Below the pieces are notes generated by a model. It searched no databases. It saw only the letters and a list, made by a program, of their open reading frames with translations, and was not told where the DNA came from. The position numbers were made by a program, and so were the translations under genes. Below are positions 40,231-61,959 of a DNA stretch of 64,000 nucleotides, in pieces. How positions within the stretch are numbered: the first letter of the stretch is position 1; every line of letters begins with the position of its first letter. The stretch comes from Ihuprevotella massiliensis (GTDB lineage: Bacteria; Bacteroidota; Bacteroidia; Bacteroidales; Bacteroidaceae), in the NCBI GenBank assembly GCA_900095835.1, contig LT608321.1:166373-230372 (forward strand), written 5' to 3'.

Positions 40231-40586
40231 AAACAAAACAGAGCGTTCTGACTATCTGTGAGTATCGAACATTGTGTTTCCGGTTAAAATGTTAATGGGG
40301 CGAAAATGTACATGATGCATGTCATTGGGTATAGTACAATTTATAGGTATTCAAGGTCAGAAATAAATAATACGTACGGACTTTATAACACATTATGCAG
40401 AAAGCTGTATATATGAGATGATATCTAATGGTTATCCCAGCCTTGTGTGTTTGCAGGTTGTATATATTATCTTGCGCCACACACCTGATTTTACTCTCTA
40501 AAAACACGATAAGATCTTATAGGTCTTAATTATTACCAGAAACCATCCCTAAGAACAACTTCGGTTGCACCTAGGGGTGGTTTTAA
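40231..40586 (+). ncRNA. Candidate structured non-coding RNA, about 355 nt
   Basis: A strong promoter ends at 40224 and a terminator-like hairpin spans 40541-40582. In between are serial hairpins: CAGA-GCGT-TCTG (40239-40250), AACATT/AATGTT (about 40268-40291), AATG-ACATG/CATGT-CATT (about 40305-40327), GTGTGT...GCAGG with CTTGC...ACACAC (about 40444-40484), and AAGATC/GGTCTT. There is no long open frame and the next gene is convergent. It lacks the landmarks of tmRNA (tag peptide), RNase P RNA or SRP RNA. Its identity is unknown; it could be a divergent 6S-like or other regulatory RNA. Confidence 0.5.
40541..40586 (+). terminator. UUCG-capped terminator of orphan transcript
   Basis: AACCATCCCTA (40541-40551) pairs with TAGGGGTGGTT (40572-40582); the inner stem CAAC-TTCG-GTTG has a stable UUCG tetraloop. 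TTAAT follows. Confidence 0.7.
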
Positions 40587-40805
40587 TATGTAGGGCTGAT
40601 TGCCCTTAAATAGTAAGTAAGTTTGATTTGGGGAGATTTACCCTTCGTAGCTTTAAGTTCCTTGTCTAATCATAGATAATACTTTGGTCTGATCTATTCG
40701 TTAGGCTTGGCATTATATGTCGTAGAGAATAGAAAGATGAGGTGCGAAGTCTTCTTTTGAATTTCAATGCTTCCTCTTTACTAAAGTGTGTCATAACTGT
40801 AAGCC
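40587..40805. other. Gene-free stretch before tyrA stop
   Basis: Only a small hairpin, GGGC-TGATT-GCCC (about 40593-40605), was seen. No coding frame was recognised. Confidence 0.4.
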
Positions 40806-41591
40806 TTATATCGTGCCATTTCTTAAATTCTTTCGAATCTTTTCCAAGTAGCTTTTCATTCCTGTAGTATCCTTTGAGTCGATAATTGCTAGAAGTTCAG
40901 AAAGTTCATTACGAATTTGTTCAACTTGACAAGATGTGTATGGATTAAACAATACTTCCTGTAGCAGATAGTCGTCTTCTCCGAGTACTCCTTTCGCAAT
41001 ATTCATGTGTCGCTTAAAAGTCGTGCCTGGAGCATCTTGGTGCTTCATTACAGCTGCAAAGACAAATGTGCTAACAAATGGGATACTGAGCGAGTAGGCC
41101 ACGGTTTGGTCATGCTCCTCAAAGGTGTACTCATAGATATTGAGACCGAGTTTCTGATACAAATCCTTGAAGAAAATGCGTCCCATATAATCTCCTTCGC
41201 TGATGATAATTGCATTTTCGTGGCTCAATTGCTGAAGGTTAGCAAAGGTTGGGCCAAACATAGGATGTGTGCTTACAAACGGATGGCCAGACTTGTTGTA
41301 GAAGGCATGAAGGTCTGTCTTGACAGATGCGATGTCGCTTAGAATACACGAAGCAGGTAAATATGGAAGTACTTCTTTAAAAGCCGAAATTGTGTACTTC
41401 ACTGTTACTGCATTGATGACCAATTGGGGTTGGAATTGAGCAATTTCCTCAAGGGACGTGAAACGTTCACAGTTATATGTAAACCGCATACGCTGAGGAT
41501 TTTTTTCAAAAACCGCTATTTCATGCTCAAAGCTTAGTAAATCAAGGAAGAAGCTTCCCATCTTACCAGCGCCTAAAACGAGTATTTTCAT
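40806..41591 (-). CDS. tyrA: Prephenate dehydrogenase
   Basis: 261 aa NAD(P)-dependent enzyme converting prephenate to 4-hydroxyphenylpyruvate for tyrosine. A Rossmann GAGKMGSF motif starts the protein; STHPMFGPTF and the helical C-terminal dimer domain follow. The ATG at 41591 gives the family N-terminus; an in-frame TTG at 41675 lies within a leader hairpin (TTTCACTG 41625-41632 with CAGTGAAA 41662-41669). It is the last gene of the aromatic amino acid cluster, after the DAHP synthase/chorismate mutase gene. Confidence 0.92.
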   Translation of the reverse strand: MKILVLGAGKMGSFFLDLLSFEHEIAVFEKNPQRMRFTYNCERFTSLEEIAQFQPQLVINAVTVKYTISAFKEVLPYLPASCILSDIASVKTDLHAFYNKSGHPFVSTHPMFGPTFANLQQLSHENAIIISEGDYMGRIFFKDLYQKLGLNIYEYTFEEHDQTVAYSLSIPFVSTFVFAAVMKHQDAPGTTFKRHMNIAKGVLGEDDYLLQEVLFNPYTSCQVEQIRNELSELLAIIDSKDTTGMKSYLEKIRKNLRNGTI

Positions 41592-41718
41592 AGAGCTGAA
41601 GGGGATTTGTGTAGGTTGCGTTAGTTTCACTGAAAGATGTTTTCTTGTTTGAAGATGCTGCCAGTGAAAGCCCAAGTTTTAGTTTGTAAGAAAGATGGTA
41701 TAGTGAGTAGCCGTTTGA

Positions 41719-42783
41719 CTATTGGTTGATAATTTCCATTTGCTGTCTCACAGACTCTTCGTGTATACTCTCGAATACAGTAGCAACAAACTCTGCAGTC
41801 ATACCATATAGAGCCCCTTGCGCGCCACGTTTAGCCAAAATCTCGTTGTAGCGGTTAGCTTGAAATACCGTCATGTTGTGATCACGCTTATATCTACCAA
41901 TCTGACGACACACGCGCATTCTCTTTGCCAATAGTTCCATCATTTGATGATCCAAATCGTCTATCTGTTGACGAAGATCGACTATCTCGTCTATTTGTTG
42001 GTGTTCGTCACGTATGATAAGCAATGACAATATGTAGCTTAGTACATCGGGTGTGATTTGTTGAGCCGCATCACTCCATGCTTTGTCGGGGGTGCAGTGA
42101 GATTCAATGATGAGACCGTCAAACCCTAAGTCCATAGCTTGTTGACAGAGTGGAGCAATGAGTTCGCGTTTACCTCCAATGTGACTTGGATCACATATAA
42201 TAGGTAATTCAGGGATGCGACGACGAAGCTCCAAAGGAATCTGCCAAGTTGGATTATTGCGATATAATTTATTGTCATAGCTTGAAAAACCACGGTGTAT
42301 TGCCGCCAATCGTCGAATACCAGCTTGATTTAGACGCTGCATGGCACCAATCCACAATTCAAGATCAGGGCTCACAGGGTTTTTCACCAAGATAGGCACA
42401 TTTACTCCTTGTAAGCTATCGGCGAGAGATTGCATCGCAAAAGGATTTGCGGTGGTTCGAGCACCAATCCAGAGCATGTCTAAGCCATATTTGAGGCAAA
42501 GTTCTACATGTTCGGGGGTTGCCACTTCTGTTCCTACGAGCATCCTAGTAGATTCTTTGACTTGTTGCAACCATTTTAGTGCCATTTCGCCATTGCCTTC
42601 AAAACCTCCTGGCTTTGTGCGTGGTTTCCATACTCCAGCTCGAAATAGGTGGCAACCTTTTTGTGCTAGGGATTTTGCTGTATTGAGGACTTGTTCTTCT
42701 GTTTCTGCAGAGCAAGGTCCTGCAATCACTAAAGGACGATGAGCATCTGATGCAAGATTGAGAGGGAGAATGTCTAGTTCCAT
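41719..42783 (-). CDS. Bifunctional DAHP synthase / chorismate mutase
   Basis: 354 aa. Residues 1-260 form a type I-beta DAHP synthase-like domain (PLVIAGPCSAETEEQ, RAGVWKPRTKPGGFEGNG, PIICDPSHIGGKRELI). The C-terminal 90 residues are an AroQ-type chorismate mutase (LRQQIDDLDHQMMELLAKRM and a RYNEIL segment). It catalyses the first committed step of the shikimate pathway and the chorismate-to-prephenate branch step in one protein, allowing feedback control by the mutase domain as in related fusions. It has its own promoter at 42829, inside the pheA operon. Confidence 0.94.
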   Translation of the reverse strand: MELDILPLNLASDAHRPLVIAGPCSAETEEQVLNTAKSLAQKGCHLFRAGVWKPRTKPGGFEGNGEMALKWLQQVKESTRMLVGTEVATPEHVELCLKYGLDMLWIGARTTANPFAMQSLADSLQGVNVPILVKNPVSPDLELWIGAMQRLNQAGIRRLAAIHRGFSSYDNKLYRNNPTWQIPLELRRRIPELPIICDPSHIGGKRELIAPLCQQAMDLGFDGLIIESHCTPDKAWSDAAQQITPDVLSYILSLLIIRDEHQQIDEIVDLRQQIDDLDHQMMELLAKRMRVCRQIGRYKRDHNMTVFQANRYNEILAKRGAQGALYGMTAEFVATVFESIHEESVRQQMEIINQ

Positions 42784-42828
42784 AAGGATATCGTGTTTAA
42801 ACGTGGTAGACGTATGTGTACGTTAATG

Positions 42829-42836
42829 CAAAGATA
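42829..42836 (-). promoter_or_regulatory. Internal promoter -7 element before DAHP synthase
   Basis: TATCTTTG on the minus strand, 46 nt before the DAHP synthase/chorismate mutase start. It would give expression independent of the attenuator ahead of pheA. Confidence 0.5.
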
Positions 42837-42892
42837 CGACAAAAGACGGAGAATATAATATAGAATGGAGTAGAGGGGTATGGAAAACTAAT

Positions 42893-44080
42893 CTATCTCT
42901 TCTTATGGAGAACAATCCGTTGTAAAGCACGTTCCATAGTCTGCTCGTCAGCACATAGAGAAATGCGGATATATCGCTCCCCATTGCTACCAAAAATAAA
43001 GCCTGGTGTGATGAAAATGTCTAACTCATGAAGTACCCATTCCGTGAGTTCTTCGGCATGAGCGTAATGTTCAGGAATTTTGCCCCACAAGAACATCCCT
43101 ACTTGTTGAGAATTGTAGTGACAACCTAAGGCGGTCATGATGCGTTCTGCTACTTTACGACGACAAAGGTAAACCTTTTGGTTGTACTCTTCGTGCCAAG
43201 CATCAGCATTGTCGATAGCTGTGGCAGCTGCGAGTTGGATACCACGAAAAGTACCGCTGTCGATATTGCTCTTTACGCGAAGCATCCATGCAATATATGT
43301 TGGATTACTCACACACATACCTACACGCCAGCCTGGCATGTTGAAAGTCTTGCTCATCGAATTAAATTCTATGCAGCAATCTTTGGCGCCTGGCACTTGC
43401 ATCAAGGAGGTGGGCTGATTATTGAGGATAAAAGAATATGGATTGTCATTGACTATTACGATATTATGACGCTTTGCGAATTCCACCAATCGTCTGTAAG
43501 TGCTCATTTGGGCAGCTGCTCCCGTTGGCATGTGTGGATAATTAGTCCACATAACCTTTACTTTTGCCAAGTCCATCTGTTCGAGCTCTTCAAAATTAGG
43601 TTGCCATTGGTGCACCTCATCAAGATTGTAGTACACTACTTCTGCTCCCAACAGTCTACTAAGGCTTGTATAAGTGGGATAACCGGGGTTAGGAACAAGA
43701 ACTTGTTCACCAGGGTTTACCAATGCTAGAGTGACATGTAGTATTCCTTCCTTACTTCCAATCAGAGGTAATACTTCTGTTGAGGAATCTAAAGTGACAC
43801 CATACCAACGAGAGTAGAAATTCGCTATAGCTTCCAAGAACTCTGGTGTTCCTTTGGTCGGTTGGTATCCGTGACTTGTTGGTTCTTGTGCCACTAGACA
43901 AAGTCGTTGCACAGTTGCTTGCGACGGTGGTAAGTCAGGCGAACCAATGGCTAAGCTAATCACGTCGTGACCTGCAGCTTTTCGTGCATTTACTTCTTGC
44001 AGTTTGCGACTAAAATAGTATTCTTGTATTTGACTGATTCTAGAAGCTGGAGATATCTTAGAGGTATGAAGAAGTTCCAT
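42893..44080 (-). CDS. PLP-dependent aminotransferase (aromatic pathway)
   Basis: 395 aa fold-I class I/II aminotransferase. The PLP lysine lies in EFNSMSKTFNMPGWRVGM; VPNPGYPTYTSL and NDNPYSFI are cofactor-binding stretches. Its position between pheA and the chorismate mutase gene, overlapping pheA by 23 nt, points to transamination of phenylpyruvate/4-hydroxyphenylpyruvate or prephenate. Sequence alone does not separate these from aspartate or LL-DAP aminotransferases. Confidence 0.88.
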   Translation of the reverse strand: MELLHTSKISPASRISQIQEYYFSRKLQEVNARKAAGHDVISLAIGSPDLPPSQATVQRLCLVAQEPTSHGYQPTKGTPEFLEAIANFYSRWYGVTLDSSTEVLPLIGSKEGILHVTLALVNPGEQVLVPNPGYPTYTSLSRLLGAEVVYYNLDEVHQWQPNFEELEQMDLAKVKVMWTNYPHMPTGAAAQMSTYRRLVEFAKRHNIVIVNDNPYSFILNNQPTSLMQVPGAKDCCIEFNSMSKTFNMPGWRVGMCVSNPTYIAWMLRVKSNIDSGTFRGIQLAAATAIDNADAWHEEYNQKVYLCRRKVAERIMTALGCHYNSQQVGMFLWGKIPEHYAHAEELTEWVLHELDIFITPGFIFGSNGERYIRISLCADEQTMERALQRIVLHKKR

Positions 44081-44903
44081 CGTTATATTCTCCTATAATT
44101 TTAAGTTTTTGAGTGAGTGGGATGATTGCATCTATGCTTTGATGATAGCGCTTTAAGTCGTTGAAAGTCAAATCTACATAGAATAGATATTCCCATTCGT
44201 GTCCAATGACTGGCATGGACTGTATTTTTGTGAGATTGATGCCATAAAAAGATAAAATAGTCAAGACTTTAGAGAGACTTCCTTCCTCGTGAGGGAGTGA
44301 AAAAATTAAGCTTGCTTTATTAACGATTTGCCATGATCGTAGTGAGCCAGCTTTCTGTGGATGACTAACTACCAGAAACCGTGTGAAGTTGTGTTTGTTG
44401 TCTTCGATTTGGTTTTTGAGTATTTTCATTCCATAGAGTTTAGCTGCAGAAGCATTGCAGATTGCAGCCCAGCCTCTTTGTTTCTTTTCTATTATGTTTG
44501 CTGCTGCTCCTGCGGTATCTTCTGCTTCCACAGCTTTTAGACTAGGATGTTGTGCTAGAAATTGCCGACATTGCATCAGGGCAACAGGATGAGAGTGCAC
44601 TTCTTGCAATGTGTCCCAATTGTCCTCTGGTAGGCAACATATTGCATGTTCAATATGGAGTTTATATTCTCCTACAATGGTAACTCCCGAAGCGCGAAGT
44701 AATTCATAGTTATGGAGAAGTGAGCCTGCAATAGTGTTTTCTATTGCAACTAGCCCAATAATCGTGGGGTCACTATTTATGCTATCAAAAACCTCTTCAA
44801 AAGTGTTGCAATAGAGACATTGCACTTGTTCGTTGTGAAAATACTTGTAGGCTGCAATTTCGTGGAAAGCACCTGCGACACCTTGTATAGCGATTCTTTT
44901 CAT
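44058..44903 (-). CDS. pheA: Prephenate dehydratase
   Basis: 281 aa, stand-alone dehydratase converting prephenate to phenylpyruvate. The N-terminal catalytic domain has IAIQGVAGAFHEIAAYKYF and GLVAIENTIAGSLLHNYELL; the C-terminal ACT domain (about 200-275) has FSLPHEEGSLSKVLTILSFYGI and is the expected Phe feedback site. No chorismate mutase domain is attached. It is the first gene of the Phe/Tyr operon and is preceded by an attenuator leader with a Phe/Tyr-rich peptide. Confidence 0.95.
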   Translation of the reverse strand: MKRIAIQGVAGAFHEIAAYKYFHNEQVQCLYCNTFEEVFDSINSDPTIIGLVAIENTIAGSLLHNYELLRASGVTIVGEYKLHIEHAICCLPEDNWDTLQEVHSHPVALMQCRQFLAQHPSLKAVEAEDTAGAAANIIEKKQRGWAAICNASAAKLYGMKILKNQIEDNKHNFTRFLVVSHPQKAGSLRSWQIVNKASLIFSLPHEEGSLSKVLTILSFYGINLTKIQSMPVIGHEWEYLFYVDLTFNDLKRYHQSIDAIIPLTQKLKIIGEYNDGTSSYL

Positions 44904-44927
44904 AGGACTGGATATCGATTTATAGAT

Positions 44928-45046
44928 AAAAAGAAAAATCCCACTTCAACATAAAGTGAAGCGGGATGATATGATGAAAAAATGACAACTTTCAATCATT
45001 GTAGAAATAACTACATGCGACTACCCCTTCACAATGGCTTGTGAAG
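44928..45046 (-). promoter_or_regulatory. Phe/Tyr transcription attenuator of pheA operon
   Basis: On the minus strand, region 1 CTTCACAA (45046-45039) pairs with region 2 TTGTGAAG (45034-45027). Region 2, as GTGAAGGGG (45032-45024), can instead pair with region 3 CCCGCTTCAC (44965-44956) with one bulge. Region 3 otherwise forms the terminator: ATCCCGCTTCA (44967-44957) with TGAAGTGGGAT (44948-44938), followed by TTTTTCTTTTT. The Phe/Tyr codon run of the leader peptide abuts region 1. Stalling there would free region 2 and favour read-through into pheA. Confidence 0.82.
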
Positions 45047-45087
45047 TAAAAGTAAAATCGAAAGAATGAAGTAGTAATTGTAAGCAT
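44992..45087 (-). CDS. Phe/Tyr-rich leader peptide of pheA operon
   Basis: 31 codons from ATG 45085-45087 to TGA 44992-44994. The peptide includes SFFRFYFYF (residues 7-15), seven aromatics in nine residues, and a second SYFYN cluster (26-30). The start is about 20 nt after the predicted transcript start, with an A-rich upstream region typical of Bacteroidetes ribosome sites. No stable protein function is expected; ribosome position on these codons is the signal. Confidence 0.8.
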   Translation of the reverse strand: MLTITTSFFRFYFYFTSHCEGVVACSYFYND

Positions 45088-45114
45088 TTTGCTATTTGTT
45101 TGGTTTGAATATTG

Positions 45115-45122
45115 CAAAAATA
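45115..45122 (-). promoter_or_regulatory. Promoter -7 element of pheA operon
   Basis: TATTTTTG on the minus strand. Transcription would start near 45108, giving a leader of about 205 nt before pheA. Confidence 0.6.
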
Positions 45123-45706
45123 TCACTTATTTTTGAATATTCCAAATGTTTGCTCAGATATTTACAGATAAACTCGCAAAGTCCCTCAAAGTGTTATAAT
45201 CTAAATAATAGTTGGAACCTTAACCTTTAGGAAGTACTTGATTATATTCCTTGACTCCCATATTAAAAAGGAAGTATTTCCTTTCACTACAGATCAGTAG
45301 AGTAGTATGAGTTCTACTATTTTCTGTGCAAAATACATTTTAAAGTAGAGGATAAATCTACTGTAAATGTTGAGGAAAATACAAAGAACTTTCCAATAAA
45401 AACTATGAGATGACAGGCAAAGTAGGCAAAGCGTTGAAAGTTGGGATGAGTTCTCGTTGTTTTTACGTGAAATGCTTGGTAGTTTCTGCTGAAATCAGTA
45501 GTTTTACATCGCAAAGCGGTGTGTGAAGAAATCATTAGGTACATGGACTACTGGAATAGTTTTCTCTATAGCTTGTGCCTAGCTTTGCGGTTTGTCTGAG
45601 AAACGGAAGTGTTATCTCTGTTTCTAGGCAGATGACTTATGTAAATAAATTAGAATATAAGTTAGGCTGGCTTTTTCTTTTCCATGCCTCGAATGATAAT
45701 TTTCGA
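45123..45706. other. Gene-free stretch upstream of S41 protease gene
   Basis: It should hold the promoter of the S41 protease cluster, but I could not place a full TTG/TAnnTTTG pair. A 75-codon frame on the minus strand (45317-45544) has no family resemblance and is probably not a gene. Confidence 0.4.
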
Positions 45707-61888: not shown

Positions 61889-61926
61889 CAATGTTTTCAT
61901 GGTATTAGATTTAAGGTTAAAAGAAG

Positions 61927-61959
61927 ATTGGTTGTCGGGAGACAATCAATTTTTATTTT
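61927..61959 (+). terminator. Intrinsic terminator inside leader of HAD gene
   Basis: ATTGGTTGTC (61927-61936), GGGA loop, GACAATCAAT (61941-61950), ten paired positions with one G-U, followed by TTTTTATTTT. It is about 30 nt after the predicted transcript start and about 100 nt before the HAD gene, which suggests attenuation or a very short RNA. Confidence 0.6.

Follow-up and report, generated by a model that had tools for sequence, protein, structure and literature searches.

The window, the whole 64,000-nucleotide stretch of DNA analysed here, carries on its minus strand a four-gene operon for aromatic amino acid synthesis. The first gene, pheA (44903-44058), encodes a prephenate dehydratase (NCBIfam PRK11898.1, E 1.1e-59, 202 bits against a cut-off of 219) and is overlapped at its end by an aminotransferase gene (44080-42893; NCBIfam LL-diaminopimelate aminotransferase, E 2.9e-115, 385 bits, cut-off 507), which is followed by a gene for a DAHP synthase/chorismate mutase fusion (42783-41719; NCBIfam PRK08673.1, E 1e-54, together with chorismate mutase models, below the cut-offs) and by tyrA, encoding prephenate dehydrogenase (41675-40806; NCBIfam prephenate dehydrogenase models, best E 1.4e-17, below the cut-offs). 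Thus, none of the four genes reaches the curated cut-off of its best model. On the opposite flank, the neighbouring gene (45575, plus strand) is divergent from pheA, so that the terminator described below serves no upstream gene. Neither trpE (PF04715) nor hisG (PF01634) was found in this genome, which is 96% complete; they were matched in 14 of 14 and 13 of 14 control genomes, respectively. Judging from its gene content, the organism is likely a tryptophan and histidine auxotroph that keeps phenylalanine and tyrosine synthesis. Elsewhere in the window, positions 61891-61959 of the plus strand match the Bacteroidetes FopS sRNA (Rfam RF04319, 68.6 bits; gathering score 56). Together with the promoter type and the genes present, this RNA suggests that the window belongs to the Bacteroidales (Bacteroidia, Bacteroidota).

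The earlier note had described a promoter, a leader peptide, paired regions and a terminator, in this order, ahead of pheA, and all of these parts are present on the minus strand. By comparison with the Bacteroidetes promoter consensus, TTTG (45146-45143) and TATTTTTG (45122-45115), the former 20 nt upstream of the latter, are promoter-like and represent candidate -33 and -7 elements. The layout from promoter to peptide stands as to order but not as to distance, which was given as about 20 nt and measures 27 nt from TATTTTTG to the leader ATG. The leader ORF, MLTITTSFFRFYFYFTSHCEGVVACSYFYND (45087-44992; ATG 45087-45085, stop TGA 44994-44992), encodes a peptide of 31 amino acids plus stop that includes SFFRFYFYF; its sensor codons, TTC TTT CGA TTT TAC TTT TAC TTC (FFRFYFYF), occupy 45066-45043, and the window leader has no Trp codon. 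The core of region 1, CTTCACAA (45046-45039; sequence, pairing and fold), had been placed directly after the aromatic codons; it actually overlaps the last Tyr/Phe codons, and the predicted 1:2 pairing extends still further back. Region 2, TTGTGAAGGGG (45034-45024; pairing, covariation and fold), can pair with region 1 or with region 3, ATCCCGCTTCA (44967-44957), and region 3 with region 4, TGAAGTGGGAT (44948-44938), forms an intrinsic terminator with the T-tract TTTTCTTTTT (44937-44928; sequence and terminator scan). These pairings were seen as the note had proposed them and gain further support from covariation; regions 3 and 4 were placed by pairing, covariation and the terminator scan.

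With the initial eight bases of region 2 (45034-45027), region 1 makes a perfect 8-bp hairpin, which the predicted fold continues outwards with a 5′ strand inside the sensor codons (CGAU, UACUU; 45060-45050) and a 3′ strand (GGGUA, GUCG) at 45026-45018. The pairings 1:2, 2:3 and 3:4 are mutually exclusive. The pheA ATG lies outside all paired regions, 34 nt beyond the end of region 4, and the window carries a single unit of this kind. Behind region 2, the peptide has a second aromatic group, Tyr-Phe-Tyr (45009-45001, minus strand; SYFYND and then the stop), and it is the only one of 139 family-level leaders with three consecutive aromatic residues after residue 20.

Such an arrangement is rare by chance as far as the peptide is concerned. 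Across both strands of the 64 kb, no ATG-started ORF of 8-50 amino acids other than the leader has at least six Phe/Tyr residues in nine, and the leader has a terminator behind it. Shuffling its own upstream region yielded a peptide with at least seven of nine Phe/Tyr in 2 of 2000 trials and with at least six of nine in 12 of 2000. The fold of the 169-nt leader has a z-score of -4.18, and none of 200 shuffles was equally stable. Besides this terminator, the minus strand has no terminator-like site in 40500-45600; since both strands of that interval hold five such sites against a shuffle mean of 3.7, the hairpin by itself proves little.

The predicted energies bear on how the alternatives could compete. 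In the window, 1:2 reaches -13.6 kcal/mol when extended back to codons CGA TTT TAC TTT (core, -8.3), and the 2:3 duplex, with one bulge, is weaker than 3:4 (-9.3 versus -16.4 kcal/mol). When region 1 is deleted and the RNA ends at region 3, the predicted fold is 2:3, whereas inclusion of region 4 in the absence of region 1 gives 3:4. Because 3:4 wins once region 4 is present, antitermination would have to be kinetic, with 2:3 forming first. The median 2:3 energy in the family is -19.1 kcal/mol, a value that is not like for like with the -9.3 of the window, the family stretches being longer. The window leader reads AAGGGG in region 2, where most relatives have AAGCGGG, and it scores 61 bits with the covariance model, as against 90-110 bits for four other family members among the matches listed.

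Conservation and pairing of the leader in the family

A search for pheA gave matches in 176 of 201 family-level genomes, and we examined up to 300 nt upstream of the gene in 150 of them. A Phe/Tyr-rich leader peptide precedes pheA in 139 of the 150 regions, representing 21 genera. With ATG starts only, peptides with at least five, six or seven of nine Phe/Tyr residues occur in 137, 137 and 134 of the 150 regions, compared with 56, 6 and 4 of 3000 shuffles, respectively. The element TANNTTTG lies at most 70 nt upstream of the leader ATG in 134 of 139 cases (mononucleotide shuffles, 105 of 2780), with TTG 17-27 nt above it in 125 of the 139 leaders, the latter count having no control. A permissive search picked a terminator-like hairpin in all 139 leaders, at least six of them probably misplaced; like the permissive picks of 1:2 and 2:3 in the same set, it carries no chance control.

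The 11 regions without a called leader are of several kinds. One is cut by the contig end (L073), two retain regions 2-4 with the leader start beyond the 300 nt (L045, L122), and in one the Phe/Tyr-rich frame runs open into pheA without a stop (L052). In L003, pheA lies directly behind another gene, the end of which reads like what we take to be trpA, which suggests that pheA has become part of a trp operon. In the other six of the 150 pheA regions, no leader is discernible by eye (L109, L110, L125, L126 and L142 (g30), and L076 (g11)); by eye, these six have a promoter-like TTTG element shortly upstream of pheA. They represent apparent losses of the attenuator, and the absence of a leader from them implies that the device is dispensable.

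What is kept in the leaders is the RNA and the aromatic run rather than the peptide. Measured from where the paired part of region 2 ends, the stop codon lies anywhere between 12 nt upstream and 37 nt downstream. All three reading frames are represented at the GCGGG of region 2, which is part of the peptide-coding sequence in 91 of 139 leaders and follows the stop in 48 (a few misplaced anchors are included in the reading-frame count). By this pattern, region 2 is conserved at the RNA level. One might suppose that a conserved terminator, which alone would reduce pheA transcription, merely stands next to a small ORF that is translated for some other purpose, perhaps as a membrane peptide, as aromatic-rich peptides can be. 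We consider such an uncoupled ORF very improbable, given that peptide length, stop and frame vary while the nucleotides of regions 1-3 and the Phe/Tyr codons are kept, and that 2:3 covaries.

For the analysis of covariation, 68 of the 139 leaders were aligned, with at most four per genus and with exact copies and sequences longer than 175 nt skipped. Six leaders were dropped because the automatically chosen terminator looked wrong (L031, L034, L039, L044, L046 and L140), and L040 was excluded because it nearly duplicates L038. In 2:3, 88.7% of cells are paired and 38 cells are changed on both sides, neither value being reached in 500 shuffles; the covariation score is likewise matched by 0 of 500, and slid controls pair at 31-52%. 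The number of further pair types lends no support to 2:3, as 497 of 500 shuffles reach it. In 3:4, 91.6% of cells are paired and 37 changed on both sides (0 of 500 shuffles on either; slid controls, 32-57%), with 12 of 500 shuffles reaching the number of further types and 30 of 500 that of pairs changed on both sides. For 1:2, the paired fraction of 90.5% is reached by 24 of 500 shuffles (slid controls, 54-65%), the cells changed on both sides by 17, the covariation score by 2, the pairs changed on both sides by 168 and the further types by 165. Covariation with region 2 as well as with region 4 is seen for column 141 of the alignment, which belongs to region 3. The earlier note had looked to related genomes for conserved aromatic codons and conserved alternative pairings, and both are there, the codons in the 139 of 150 regions noted above and the pairings with covariation that is clear for 2:3 and 3:4 and weaker, in modest excess over shuffles, for 1:2.

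The hairpin and its T-rich tail are kept in the aligned relatives, which bears on whether the leader acts on transcription at all. Leader-peptide systems of the translational type exist, and an alternative hairpin could in principle mask the pheA start. There is very little probability in this, however, with a T-tract directly after region 4, with the pheA ATG uncovered and with both hairpin and tail retained.

Behind region 2, a conserved YRYRYGYR motif has an information content of 0.55-1.0 bit per position (spacer, 0.1-0.4) and pairs with codons that immediately precede or open the Phe/Tyr run, for example AACACATA with TATGTGTT in L006 and CTGTACG with CGTACAG in L114. With fixed offsets, a first test of this outer stem gave a weak signal (best z 2.9), in part because some anchors were wrong (for example, in L014). 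In the corrected version, with a free offset, the genus-weighted pairing is 13.57 compared with a mean of 11.42 in between-genus swaps (0 of 500; z 6.3). Swaps within each of 13 genera gave clear support in g13 (0 of 500), g9 (4 of 500) and g19 (4 of 500) and a weaker lean in g22 (18 of 500), g15 (25 of 500), g21 (29 of 500) and g14 (50 of 500). There was no within-genus support for the outer stem in g1, the genus of the window (238 of 500), g3 (280 of 500), g2 (138 of 500), g6 (127 of 500) or g11 (483 of 500), several g11 leaders pairing further upstream than the stretch used in the test; the 0 of 500 obtained for g30 is uninformative, its sequences hardly varying. At first sight, the motif resembles an RNA polymerase pause signal, and it may also act as one; given its pairing with codons by the Phe/Tyr run, we read YRYRYGYR mainly as the putative 3′ strand of an outer 1:2 stem.

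The codons themselves carry a trace of pairing. At the penultimate aromatic codon (-2) of the family leaders, Tyr is encoded by TAC in 131 cases and by TAT in none, as expected if region 1 must pair, whereas codon -4 has TAC in 104 and TAT in 21, and Tyr codons -5, -6 and -8 favour TAT (these counts are not genus-weighted).

Operon content, codon content and tandem leaders

Where pheA is followed by a further aromatic gene, Phe and Tyr occur together in each of the 106 leader peptides (92 rows), as scored in the best 12 residues; several of these rows represent one place fetched twice. In L193 and L194, a prephenate dehydrogenase gene follows pheA and the leaders are mixed. Phe-only runs were found in three leaders, L183 and L186 (FRFFFFFAFFF) and L185 (FFTHFFFFF), where pheA is seemingly alone, no further aromatic gene being present in the 436-770 nt seen behind it; L185 has an extra small upstream ORF with one Tyr. 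The same three genomes have a second leader in front of either an aminotransferase-DAHP synthase operon (L155, L158: FAYFYYYFYF) or a tyrA-DAHP synthase operon (L184: YYAFYYYFFY). Two tyrA-led loci, L198 (mixed) and L201 (Tyr-rich), belong to genomes other than these three. To judge from these loci, leader codon content follows operon content, the Phe-only state being known from two families and a small sample. Separately, L205 and L206 have no pheA in the locus and carry a Phe/Tyr leader (IYFTFFYFYF) ahead of a DAHP synthase/chorismate mutase gene.

The same loci speak to the possibility that the attenuator is in effect a sensor of Phe only and that its Tyr codons are kept as UAC for the sake of 1:2 pairing. 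The invariant TAC among the 131 Tyr codons at -2, which lies inside region 1 in most relatives, indeed suggests that some Tyr codons are kept for RNA pairing. Yet the Phe-only runs of L183, L185 and L186, in two families, indicate that the structure can do without Tyr; outside region 1, moreover, Tyr codons occur often, with TAT in free use, and the operons led by tyrA or by aminotransferase/DAHP synthase genes have mixed or Tyr-rich runs (L155, L157, L158, L184, L198 and L201). Phe-only sensing is therefore rather unlikely. Sensing of both amino acids, which had been proposed from the mixed run and the presence of tyrA at the end of the operon, is supported by the contrast between the Phe-only runs at the three lone pheA genes and the mixed or Tyr-rich runs at operons led by tyrA, aminotransferase or DAHP synthase genes.

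Beyond the family, the covariance model matches 59 of 247 genomes of the order and 18 of 198 of the class; it was built from the family, so a non-match does not amount to absence. The class-level pheA search matched in 32 of 119 cases, and outside the order of the window, 17 of 26 inspected class pheA regions have a leader with a terminator in a strict scan that counts Trp as well, with aromatic runs that include Trp in L222, L235 and L243. Within the order, 50 loci were inspected and nine without a pheA match were left out. In the strict scan, the remaining 41 pheA loci comprise 9 with tandem leaders, 28 with a single leader and 4 with none; having been picked by model match, they do not give a population rate of tandem forms. 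The nine tandem loci (L163, L169, L178, L187, L188, L190, L193, L195 and L196) come from seven families, and in each of them both leaders have their own terminator and both runs contain Phe and Tyr. No tandem leaders were found in the 150 family-level regions of 300 nt each.

Further loci fall outside the tandem count. L176 and L180 have two leaders and two model matches per genome and were scored as single by the scan, L176 showing two terminators by eye; at the class level, L241 and L245 are tandem by eye; and in L154 and L218, a second small Phe/Tyr-rich ORF lies shortly before the leader. The strict scan also misses the terminators of L151 and L154 as well as L179 and L189, whose leaders are apparently GTG-started.

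Attenuation model and relation to known systems

The leader is very probably an attenuator of transcription mediated by the ribosome, with charged tRNA-Phe and tRNA-Tyr as its signals and the pheA-aminotransferase-DAHP synthase/chorismate mutase-tyrA operon as its target. Its parts, their order, conservation and covariation, and a codon content that follows operon content are all observed. The locus displays the hallmarks of trp/phe-type attenuators, namely, a leader ORF rich in codons for the operon products, a 3:4 terminator, a 2:3 pairing that excludes it, a protector 1:2 and a match between codons and operon.

We infer the transcription start, ribosome stalling, termination and the response to starvation from this arrangement. 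With both tRNAs charged, the ribosome would translate through the Phe/Tyr run, and region 2 would be held away from region 3 either by the 1:2 hairpin or by the ribosome, so that 3:4 could form and transcription would stop near 44930. When Phe or Tyr is short, the ribosome would stall on Phe/Tyr codons in or beside region 1, leaving region 2 free to pair with region 3 as soon as the latter is made; 3:4 would then fail to form in time, and the polymerase would read into pheA.

A leader that senses a protein or a ligand (a riboswitch, T-box or PyrR-like element) and contains the small ORF incidentally would also sit ahead of such an operon. In Rfam 15, the window leader has four weak matches only at E <= 10, among them a PyrR site at 20.4 bits (E 1.1) against a gathering score of 54, and no family, T-box and other cis-regulatory families included, reaches its cut-off for the window leader or six relatives. 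With the conserved signal residing in the codon run, we regard such a ligand-sensing leader as extremely improbable.

As to the history of the charged-tRNA attenuator, we lean slightly towards a joint reading in which it is ancestral to the class, its codons were retuned when operons split and it was doubled in several families of the order, giving two serial checkpoints for the same signal and a steeper response. Retuning would account for Phe-only runs before a solitary pheA and for mixed or Tyr-rich runs before operons led by tyrA or an aminotransferase gene. Collectively, the data provide a complete, covariation-backed model of the apparent control of phenylalanine and tyrosine synthesis in a large group, presumably the Bacteroidales. 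The leaders form a natural series (Phe-only, mixed, Tyr-rich, single and tandem) in which the effects of codon choice and of serial checkpoints can be addressed, and they allow one to ask whether the coupling of translation to transcription in these bacteria is tight enough for attenuation of the trp type.

Enteric pheA and trp attenuators consist of a leader peptide, regions 1-4 and a terminator/antiterminator switch, with the parts in the same order as here. They respond to Phe or Trp alone, whereas the window leader has a mixed Phe/Tyr run ahead of an operon that makes both products; furthermore, unlike in the enteric systems, the sensor codons themselves form region 1 in most relatives studied here.

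Closer to home is Bacteroid-trp (RF01692), the Bacteroidete tryptophan peptide leader RNA described by Weinberg et al. (2010; PMC2864571). With a gathering threshold of 49 bits, this family gave no match to the window leader at E <= 10 and none in its own genome. Two loci of our set, L247 (minus strand, 48.5 bits) and L248 (plus strand, 45 bits), are likely Trp leaders just under that cut-off, which may be strict for this group; both stand before a gene that we take to be trpB. In their cmscan alignments, the sensor codons lie within a long hairpin of the 1:2 type, as in the pheA leaders, and the consensus outer strands of Bacteroid-trp, UACAUAU and AUAUGUAU, are similar to their counterparts in many pheA leaders. 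An extended 1:2 hairpin is thus not special to pheA and, since Bacteroid-trp has a comparable one, is likely a shared trait of such leaders. What differs are the codons, which are for Trp (WWW in L247); Bacteroid-trp is the sister of the pheA leader, for Trp.

In Flavobacterium psychrophilum and other Flavobacteriaceae, a structured 5′ element without an Rfam match has been reported upstream of pheA, and the amino acid operons of this family are reported to show strong clues for leader-peptide attenuation (PMC9723704). That element concerns the same gene and, on the placing given above, the same phylum as the leader described here, the comparison being one by description, without sequence, sensor codons or pairings in the accessible part of that source (PMC9723704). 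The tandem forms recall the Salmonella mgtCBR leader, in which two small ORFs each exert their own control in response to ATP and proline, and which, according to its authors, lacks two terminator sites, in contrast to the tandem riboswitch with which it was compared (PMC3641672). The tandem pheA leaders differ from it in having Phe and Tyr in both runs and a terminator in each unit. Among the papers listed in our literature search, we recognised none on a pheA leader in Bacteroidales. Attenuation was compared across bacteria by Lopatovskaya et al. (2010; cited in PMC4833913), who may already have predicted this pheA attenuator. The type of attenuation is already known; new here are the anatomy of the leader, its covariation support, the relation between codons and operon, and the tandem forms.
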